Assembly (NCBI GenBank): GCA_027449865.1 | Contig: DAIDKV010000177.1 | Location: 1 to 32,975, forward strand | DNA: 32,975 nt | Direction: 5' to 3' | Source of the DNA: Planctomycetales bacterium | GTDB lineage: Bacteria > Planctomycetota > Planctomycetia > Isosphaerales > Isosphaeraceae | In this document: positions 15,334-18,432 of the stretch, piece by piece | Layout of the letters: each line of letters opens with the position of its first letter | How positions within the stretch are numbered: the stretch's first letter is position 1 | Program-made: the position numbers and the translations under genes | The notes under the pieces: generated by a model | The model's database searches: none | What the model was told of the DNA's origin: nothing | The model's input: only the letters and a program-made list of their open reading frames with translations

Positions 15334-18300
15334 ATGGCCTCGCGACCCGACGATTGCGACCGGGACCGCCTGCGGCTCTCGCTGGAGGACCGGCTCACGG
15401 ACGAGGAGCAAGCCGGGCTGGCGGCGCACCTGGAAGGGTGCGAACCTTGCCGGCTCGACCTGGAGCGGATGGCCGCCGAGAGCCGGTACTGGGGCGACGC
15501 CGCCCGGCTCCTCGGCGGATCGCCGGGCGTCGAGGAGGCGGGCGATCTCCCCGACGACGGATGGCCCGGACTGCTCGAACCGCCGGATCCCGAACGGCCC
15601 GGGTCGATCGGGAGGCTCGGGCGTTACGACGTGATGGAGATCCTCGGCCGGGGCGGGATGGGGCTGGTCCTCAAGGCGGTCGACCCGTCGCTCGGCCGGA
15701 CGGTCGCCATCAAGGTCCTGAACCCCGCGCTGGCGCACGCCGCGAGCGCCCGACGCCGGTTCGAGCGGGAGGGGAAGGCCGTCGCGGCGGTCGCGCACGA
15801 GCACATCGTGACGATCCACTCCGTGGACGAGCTGCGCGGCCTGCCTTGCCTGGTGATGGAGTACGTCCCAGGCCGGTCCGTGCAGGAAAAGCTCGACGCC
15901 TGCGGGCCGCTGGAGGTTCGGGAAGTCCTGAGGATCGCGACCCAGGCGGCGCGAGCCCTCTCCGCGGCGCATGCCCAGGGGATCATCCACCGCGACATCA
16001 AGCCGGCCAACATCCTGCTCCAGAACTGCGTCGAGCGGGTCAAGCTGACGGACTTCGGCCTGGCGCGGGCCGTGGACGACGCGAGCCTGACGCAGAGCGG
16101 ACTGATCGCCGGGACCCCGCAGTACATGGCCCCCGAGCAGGCGCGGGGCGAGCCGGTCGACGCGAGGGCCGATCTGTTTGCCCTCGGCGCCGTGCTCTAC
16201 GCGATGGCCGTCGGCCGACCTCCGTTCCGGGCCGACTCGGCGCTCGCCGTGCTGCGTCGGGTGTGCGACGACCGCCATCGGCCGATCCGGGAGCTGAACC
16301 CCGATGTCCCCGCCTGGCTCGAAGCGATCGTCGACCGACTGCTCGCCAAGGACCCCGACGACCGATTCGCGACGGCCGCCGAGGTCGCCGACCTGCTCGA
16401 AAAGGGCCTGGCTCACCTCCAGCAGCCGACCACGTTGCCCCCGCCCGCGGTGCCGGGGGCTCGCTCCCTTACGATCGGTCGTGAGCCCCGGTCGGGCGTC
16501 CCGCGTCGTCTTGCGATGGCGGCGGCGCTCGTCCTGGCGGCGGTCGCGGGGATCGGGGCCAGCGACGCCGCGGGGCTGACCCAGGTCTCCGACTACGTCG
16601 CGACGATCCTCCGGATCAGGACGGCCGACGGGACGCTGATCGTCAAGGTCGATGACCCCAACGTGAAGCTCCGGATCGACGGCGATGAGGTCGTCATCGG
16701 AGGGGCCGGTCCGCAGGAGATCCGCGTCCGCGCCGGCAAGCATCGGGTCCAGGCGATCAGGGACGGCAAGCCCGTTCGCGAGTCGATCGTCACGGTCGCC
16801 CGCGGCGGGAAGGAGACGGTCCAGGTCGATTTCGAGCCGGGCGAGGATTCGGCCCGTGTGATACCCTCGCCGACGGCCATGAGCCAATCGGACATCGATC
16901 TTTACTGGCAGTTGCTGGAATCTTCCAGGAACAAAGCGGCCGGCCTCTGGGACCGGCCAGAACTGAATCGTTCCGTGCCGCAGAAGCCCGACACGCCGGC
17001 TCAACTCCGGCCAGGTCACGTGCGGTTCACCACCTCGACCGAGCCAGGCGGGGAAACGGTGAGTGATGTGATCACCTTCCGGGTAACGGCGAAGCTCGAT
17101 CCCGGCTACCGCATCTACAAGCACGACAAGTACGACAAAGTGCCCGACAGGAGTCCCGTCCCAACGACCTTTGACTTCTTCGACACCGGCGGAGAGGAGG
17201 TGCTGGGAGACTGGATCGCCTCACGCGAGCCAACCCGCCGCAAGGATCCTGCTTTCCCGGACTGGCCATTCACCGAGTTCTACGAGAATGCAGTCTCGTG
17301 GAGCATCAAGCTGAGAATGCGAGCGGATTCCCCACCCGGGAAGGAGTACCGTGTCCAGGTGGGTTACGTGGTCGGGAAGGACCGGTCGTGCAGCACGCCC
17401 GTTCGGTGGACCTTGCCCGGCCACCCAATCGTTATGGTCGGGGGCGGAATCGGGACCGTCGAGGGACGCCCCCAGGACGATCCCGCCCGGGCGAGGGCGA
17501 TGGTCTGGAGTCTCGCCTACTCGCCCGACGGCCGGCAACTCGCGATCGCCCAGCAGGCCATCGACCGCGCCGAATCGGTTTTGCGCGTCCGCGACCTCGA
17601 ACGCCGGACCGAACAGGTCTGGGTCCACAAGAACGCCGGGTTTCGGAGCGTGGCGTTCTCGACGAGCGGCCGTGTGCTCGCCGCCGGCCACTTCGACGGG
17701 ACGATCACCTATCTGGAAGGACGCGGGCCGTGGAGGATCGAACGCGAGGACGACCAGCGCTCGGCGATCAACGCGGTGGCGTTCGTGCCGTTCAGCCATA
17801 CGCTCCTCGCCGGCGACTGGGACGGATGGGTCGGTTTCCAGGGGCCCGACCCGATTCCCAACTACACACCGCTCCGATACCCCGGCCGGGTCTGGAGCCT
17901 CGCCGTCAGCCCGGATGGCTCGACGCTCGCGGTCGGGGGCGAGGCGAAGACGGTTCAGATTTTCGACCTGAAAACGCGGCGGCTCAAAACGACCCTCCAG
18001 GGGCACGATCACCCGGTCGAGTCGCTCGCGTTCTCGCCCGACAGCAAGACCCTCGTCTCGGCGGGCGGCCAGCTCGTCCGGTTCTGGGAGACGGCCACGT
18101 GGAAGGAATCGGCCCCGCCGATCCGGCATCAGCCCGAGGTGATCTGCGTGAGGTTCTCGCCCGACGGGAAGCTGCTGGCGATCTCCGATGGCGAGAGCTA
18201 CCTCCCCCATTACAAGGTCCTATCGACCTCGGTCATCCTCTGGGACGTGGAGCGTCGGGCGGAGGTCCGGCGGCTCTGGGGGCATACCAACACCATCTGG

Positions 18301-18432
18301 GCCCTCGCGTTCTCGCCCGACGGCAAGACCCTCGCCTCGGGGAGTGCCGATCAGACCGTCCGCTTCTGGGACGTCGACACCGGTCGGCTCCGCGAGACGC
18401 TCGTGCCCGGCGCCTCGGCCGAGCCGAAGTGA
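15334..18432 (+). CDS. Transmembrane Ser/Thr kinase with anti-sigma zinc finger, DsbD-N-like module and WD40 propeller
   Basis: This 1032 aa protein has, in order: a zinc-finger anti-sigma-type motif (C8, H32xxxC36xxC39); a Hanks-type kinase domain (about 96-365) with G-loop LGRGGMG (104-110), K127, HRDIKPAN (H219, D221), DFG at 240-242 and GTPQYMAPEQ; and one transmembrane helix (about 393-412). Beyond the membrane come a small beta-rich carboxypeptidase/PEGA-like segment (about 425-505), a segment resembling the DsbD N-terminal domain (about 563-691), and seven WD40-like repeats (about 710-1030). All kinase catalytic residues are present. In the DsbD-like part only C686 remains where homologues usually have a Cys pair. 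The ATG at 15334 has GGAGG 7 bases upstream; a GTG at 15301 overlapping the sigma stop is the alternative. The gene probably forms an operon with the ECF factor and controls it. The DNA for residues 510-700 looks less GC-rich than its surroundings. Confidence 0.92.
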   Translation: MASRPDDCDRDRLRLSLEDRLTDEEQAGLAAHLEGCEPCRLDLERMAAESRYWGDAARLLGGSPGVEEAGDLPDDGWPGLLEPPDPERPGSIGRLGRYDVMEILGRGGMGLVLKAVDPSLGRTVAIKVLNPALAHAASARRRFEREGKAVAAVAHEHIVTIHSVDELRGLPCLVMEYVPGRSVQEKLDACGPLEVREVLRIATQAARALSAAHAQGIIHRDIKPANILLQNCVERVKLTDFGLARAVDDASLTQSGLIAGTPQYMAPEQARGEPVDARADLFALGAVLYAMAVGRPPFRADSALAVLRRVCDDRHRPIRELNPDVPAWLEAIVDRLLAKDPDDRFATAAEVADLLEKGLAHLQQPTTLPPPAVPGARSLTIGREPRSGVPRRLAMAAALVLAAVAGIGASDAAGLTQVSDYVATILRIRTADGTLIVKVDDPNVKLRIDGDEVVIGGAGPQEIRVRAGKHRVQAIRDGKPVRESIVTVARGGKETVQVDFEPGEDSARVIPSPTAMSQSDIDLYWQLLESSRNKAAGLWDRPELNRSVPQKPDTPAQLRPGHVRFTTSTEPGGETVSDVITFRVTAKLDPGYRIYKHDKYDKVPDRSPVPTTFDFFDTGGEEVLGDWIASREPTRRKDPAFPDWPFTEFYENAVSWSIKLRMRADSPPGKEYRVQVGYVVGKDRSCSTPVRWTLPGHPIVMVGGGIGTVEGRPQDDPARARAMVWSLAYSPDGRQLAIAQQAIDRAESVLRVRDLERRTEQVWVHKNAGFRSVAFSTSGRVLAAGHFDGTITYLEGRGPWRIEREDDQRSAINAVAFVPFSHTLLAGDWDGWVGFQGPDPIPNYTPLRYPGRVWSLAVSPDGSTLAVGGEAKTVQIFDLKTRRLKTTLQGHDHPVESLAFSPDSKTLVSAGGQLVRFWETATWKESAPPIRHQPEVICVRFSPDGKLLAISDGESYLPHYKVLSTSVILWDVERRAEVRRLWGHTNTIWALAFSPDGKTLASGSADQTVRFWDVDTGRLRETLVPGASAEPK

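Follow-up and report, generated by a model that had tools for sequence, protein, structure and literature searches.

We found that a planctomycete receptor kinase encoded next to an ECF sigma factor gene carries, in the part predicted to lie outside the membrane, a homologue of the N-terminal domain of the envelope enzyme DsbD, and that one of the two redox cysteines of this domain is gone. The protein is encoded in a 32,975-nucleotide stretch of DNA from a Planctomycetales bacterium of the family Isosphaeraceae (assembly GCA_027449865.1, contig DAIDKV010000177.1); the whole stretch analysed is referred to here as the window. On the evidence below, we consider it reasonably probable that this is a single-pass, ECF-paired receptor kinase whose DsbD-N-like module was copied from an Isosphaeraceae DsbD and serves as a binding surface or spacer without catalytic activity.

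The kinase reading frame runs from the ATG at 15334, preceded by GGAGG at a distance of seven bases, to 18432. Its product consists, in order, of a zf-HC2 finger, a Hanks kinase, a membrane helix, a beta domain, the DsbD-N-type module and a WD40 propeller (Table 1). All domains called in an earlier, sequence-only reading of this DNA hold, although that reading overlooked the beta domain at residues 432-498 and the loss of the redox cysteine. The C/H/C/C finger was matched by PF13490 over residues 10-40 (E 2.1e-5), its 24.9 bits exceeding the curated cut-off of 22.2. The kinase had been described as catalytically intact, and every catalytic motif is indeed present, i.e., GRGGMG at 105, VAIK at 124-127, HRDIKPAN at 219, DFG at 240 and APE at 266; the model of this domain matched PknB of Mycobacterium tuberculosis at Z 35. 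Receptor topology was based on hydropathy and the predicted model: the sole hydropathy peak lies at about residues 391-412 and AlphaFold2 placed a helix at 391-410, in agreement with the one membrane helix proposed earlier. The small beta domain that follows is conserved in orthologs, aligning in the two closest of them (L150 and L070), and neither the window copy nor the ortholog copies gave a convincing Pfam match. The propeller model matched the seven-bladed structure 7BIE over its full span (280 residues, rmsd 1.9). It also matched, at Z 38, seven-bladed designs and PkwA of Thermomonospora curvata (WD40 structure 5YZV), which we take to be a kinase-WD40 protein and in which, to our knowledge, neither a finger nor a DsbD-N module is to be expected. 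The earlier count of exactly seven repeats is therefore correct. Kinases with WD40 repeats outside the membrane are reported to be broadly present across the planctomycete phylum (PMC11032199), and a propeller was also found in several Isosphaeraceae members of the ECF-finger-kinase type described below.

Table 1. Features of the receptor kinase and of the adjacent sigma factor gene, in window coordinates
Feature	Residues	Position	Strand	Basis
ECF sigma factor gene, 201 aa		14699..15304	+	Sigma70_r2 E 4.8e-15; Sigma70_r4_2 E 3.4e-6
Single-chain receptor kinase, 1032 aa		15334..18432	+	Open frame, ribosome-binding site and domain calls
zf-HC2 / anti-sigma-type finger (C8, H32, C36, C39)	8-40	15355..15453	+	PF13490
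Hanks-type Ser/Thr kinase domain	98-347	15625..16374	+	PF00069 E 2.6e-48
Single membrane helix	391-410	16504..16563	+	Hydropathy and AlphaFold2 helix
Small all-beta domain, just outside membrane	~432-498	16627..16827	+	AlphaFold2 pLDDT about 78-89
Lineage-specific insertion, edges approximate	~503-719	16840..17490	+	Absent from two closest orthologs
DsbD-N-type (immunoglobulin-fold) module	559-703	17008..17442	+	Identity to own-genome DsbD; fold matches
Histidine position of DsbD-N	R593	17110..17112	+	His invariant in 44 DsbD-N domains
First redox cysteine position	G681	17374..17376	+	Cys in 44/44 DsbD-N domains
Retained second cysteine, equivalent to E. coli C109	C686	17389..17391	+	Invariant in all 45
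Seven-bladed WD40 propeller	721-1024	17494..18405	+	WD40 PF00400 E 2e-41; Z 38

The stop codon of the ECF gene lies 29 bases upstream of the kinase start. Downstream of the kinase, at 19336-20250, the window encodes a secreted Spondin_N protein with a PEP-CTERM sorting signal, and at 28035-32309 a PSCyt2/PSD1 (DUF1549/DUF1553) gene adjoins a DUF1501 gene, a pair typical of planctomycetes. A finger together with an adjacent ECF gene was found in 23 of 86 kinase loci, a finger only in 1, an ECF gene only in 4 and neither in 58; this tally is descriptive, with one locus entered twice and the ECF gene at least 2 kb off in two, and is not a formal test because the loci are related. The HxxxCxxC motif of the finger is retained in most ECF-linked relatives, and a scan of the genome collection together with genome searches located the ECF-finger-kinase unit in Isosphaeraceae, Schlesneria, Pirellulales and other planctomycetes. 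A scaffold in which an ECF gene precedes a finger, a kinase and a membrane helix is widespread among planctomycetes. The proposal of the sequence-only reading that the receptor controls the neighboring ECF factor gained support from gene order and from the co-occurrence of finger and ECF gene, although the direction of control is itself inferred; on this basis the finger most likely binds the sigma factor and the receptor most likely acts on it.

Ser/Thr kinases are known to control ECF factors, including by release through phosphorylation of anti-sigma factors, and in actinobacteria it is established that phosphorylation of anti-sigma factors by PknB frees sigma factors (PMC8999054). The ECF43 systems (EcfP-PknT and EcfK-PknS) resemble the present locus in having a Ser/Thr kinase gene next to that of an ECF factor (PMC8999054). 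The acidic DAED motif is missing from ECF43 factors, whereas the window factor has DAAD and its kinase carries a finger. Because the acidic residues of region 2.2 (DAADLAQDV) are kept here, the best-known kinase-ECF mechanism is not directly applicable. The ECF43 route, by which charge is restored in the lost DAED motif, was considered and rejected as unfit for a factor with DAAD.

The module itself had no direct match in Pfam, even at E 10. In a whole-genome search, its closest relative within the same genome (G000) was the N-domain of a true DsbD on contig C108, 47-51% identical; this protein has DsbD_TM and thioredoxin domains, and its N-domain matches DsbD_N at E 2e-6. DsbD_N was likewise matched by 43 of 45 aligned module homologues from Isosphaeraceae. 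When the module was folded alone from its single sequence, the resulting model was of low confidence (pLDDT 53.5); its best Foldseek matches were DsbD-N or ScsB structures, as were the top 11 VIA-align rows (Z 5.1-7.0), and the fold matches included 1VRS, 3PFU and 6DPS. In the full-length AlphaFold2 model the module was left unmodelled (pLDDT about 25) because aligned sequences were lacking. A PDB profile search with 45 module sequences returned only short cell-surface matches, to scaffoldin and cell-wall anchoring proteins (best E 0.0017), and no DsbD-N; the linker at residues 503-558 had no credible relative (best E 0.017). Given the identity to DsbD, the DsbD_N-matching homologues and the fold matches, the module is a true homologue of DsbD-N, and the segment had rightly been called DsbD-N-like. 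In the profile check that had been suggested for these domains, zf-HC2 was matched above its cut-off, whereas DsbD_N was unmatched directly and homology was established via the DsbD of the same genome.

Two orthologs bear on how the module came to be in this kinase. The one in genome G014 (L150), whose upstream ECF gene is 76% identical, is without the module and is 66% identical over residues 1-512 and 57% over 711-1028; the one in Aquisphaera insulae (L070) is likewise without it and aligns on both sides. At this site the linker measures roughly 40-75 residues in orthologs, or approximately 15-45 in the G014 protein, depending on the alignment, compared to about 200 here. Because the two orthologs align on either side without the module, it is judged to be an insertion of roughly 170-215 residues. 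This copy comes from one draft genome (278 contigs), and the sample contained no ortholog with the insertion. G+C content is 0.62 in the insertion, 0.69-0.73 in the kinase and propeller parts and 0.64 in the N-domain of the genome's own DsbD; the corresponding third-position values are 0.75-0.79, 0.89-0.90 and 0.815. In a tree, the module falls within a clade of seven with DsbD-N domains from its own genus and from close relatives (support 95/90), on the longest branch of the tree (0.79 versus a median of 0.21), and the exact donor was not pinpointed. As judged from these sequence comparisons, the module is an insertion of DsbD origin.

Compared to the DsbD N-terminal domain (PF11412; E. coli 1JPE, 1L6P and 3PFU; Neisseria 6DPS), to which it is homologous and which gave its best fold matches, the kinase module is without the first redox cysteine and the invariant histidine. 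Both cysteines and the histidine are present in all 44 Isosphaeraceae DsbD-N domains compared; in the kinase, G681 stands where the CxxxxC pair has its first cysteine and R593 occupies the histidine position, leaving only C686. The part outside the membrane contains just one further cysteine, C938 of the propeller. The module has lost 7 of 22 near-invariant DsbD-N positions, whereas true DsbD rows have lost at most 5 (median 0), and the 15 that it keeps include core tryptophans, a glycine and prolines. The loss of one redox cysteine indicates that the module probably binds something without performing redox chemistry, which has probably gone. With these substitutions, the sensing of envelope redox or thiol state proposed in the sequence-only reading is not supported.

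In whole DsbD proteins, the N-domain is followed by the DsbD membrane and thioredoxin domains, not by WD40 repeats as in the kinase. DsbD_TM was absent among the families listed for the kinase, and the genome's only PF02683 match is its DsbD. The domain order had been called unusual, and within what was searched no other kinase was seen to have this combination: none of the loci checked had a module-bearing kinase other than the window protein. All of 30 Isosphaeraceae loci with a module homologue encode DsbD proteins, except the window and one truncated contig. Across 397 genomes of the class, module matches were mostly of the frame length expected for DsbD, most being judged by length alone. 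For 128 genomes of the class, the listed module-profile matches were set by eye against matches to the DsbD membrane domain; six listed regions without a DsbD_TM neighbour, together with this genome's third match, contained no kinase and instead held DUF255-type thioredoxin proteins, stand-alone domains and one secreted protein. Uniqueness of the module-kinase combination is restricted to this sample because coverage is that of the listed best matches of the genomes searched. The host genome itself gave 194 matches to a kinase-WD40 query, most of those listed being to the kinase domain, pointing to a large kinase repertoire. Of the groups of accessory kinase domains surveyed in the phylum, approximately half are reported to be represented by one protein in one species (PMC11032199).

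DsbD-N-type domains were also seen in other settings. Four Isosphaeraceae proteins (L198 in G011, L200 in G034, L201 in G009 and L206 on contig C178 of G000), assigned as DUF255/DsbH-like thioredoxin proteins from sequence motifs, have a C-terminal DsbD-N-type domain with an intact cysteine pair, a second and seemingly conserved re-use. A 625-residue secreted protein (L199, G008:C10) has such a C-terminal domain with both cysteines, and many Isosphaeraceae DsbD proteins, e.g., L022, L023, L031 and L036, contain two or three DsbD-N domains in tandem.

In the explanation that we favor, the intracellular zinc-finger end would hold the partner ECF sigma factor at the membrane, while the beta domain, the DsbD-N-like module and the propeller would bind an envelope ligand or protein outside. 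Ligand binding may draw kinase domains together, whereupon the kinase would autophosphorylate and then phosphorylate the finger and/or the sigma factor, which would thereby be freed or activated. The module would have been copied from an Isosphaeraceae DsbD gene into the linker between beta domain and propeller and have lost its redox pair afterward; it is most likely a non-catalytic binding surface or spacer for whatever envelope partner it may contact. The module could instead be a drifting insertion without function. That it is a recent arrival in a tolerant linker, decaying and adding nothing to signalling, is in keeping with its occurrence in a single genome, its long branch, the seven conserved positions lost, the much shorter linker of the orthologs and the many single-protein domain groups of the phylum (PMC11032199); we regard this as unlikely, though worth keeping in view, as the frame is intact and the retention of 15 of 22 near-invariant positions suggests a folded domain. 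Misassembly of the draft genome, joining the module into the kinase gene, would agree with its fragmented contigs and with the fall in G+C over the insertion, but both flanks align in frame to the same orthologous protein, and the module is not a misplaced duplicate of the genome's DsbD copy because the two are only 51% identical; such an artefact is extremely improbable.

A residual thiol chemistry centered on C686 has also to be weighed. Here C686 and a thioredoxin-like protein of the DsbD pathway would be joined by a mixed disulfide whose formation or loss switches the kinase, and the adduct would be long-lived because the resolving cysteine is missing. C686 corresponds to C109 of E. coli DsbD, which is thought to initiate reductant transfer (PMC7347389), it was kept while the other cysteine was lost, and the genome encodes a full DsbD. 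However, the invariant histidine was lost too, the module occurs in one kinase only, and retention of C686 is unsurprising because it is one of the 15 of 22 near-invariant positions kept. Since the retained residue is the second cysteine, the C109 equivalent, trapping of a mixed disulfide is conceivable yet unsupported, and we consider such a sensor quite unlikely. The broader proposition that a natural single-cysteine DsbD-N reacts covalently with thioredoxin-like proteins of the envelope and so switches both kinase and ECF factor, making the receptor a one-chain envelope thiol sensor, is highly doubtful.

The ECF-linked finger kinases compared here (L150 in G014, L070 in Aquisphaera insulae, and L072-L085 in Schlesneria and Pirellulales MAGs) are alike in their upstream ECF gene, HxxxCxxC finger and kinase, but their outer parts differ by member, e.g., an FGE-sulfatase in L080; L150 and L070 have the beta domain and propeller in common with the window protein but not the DsbD-N module. 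As it stands, the module is one example among the scattered accessory domains already known for planctomycete kinases. If C686 were reactive, it would represent a new coupling of envelope thiol state to transcription. The protein offers a clear case of planctomycete receptor kinases altering what they sense, in which an everyday envelope enzyme supplied a domain that became inserted in the outer half of a receptor for which module-free orthologs are known, with the enzyme's chemistry lost on the way.
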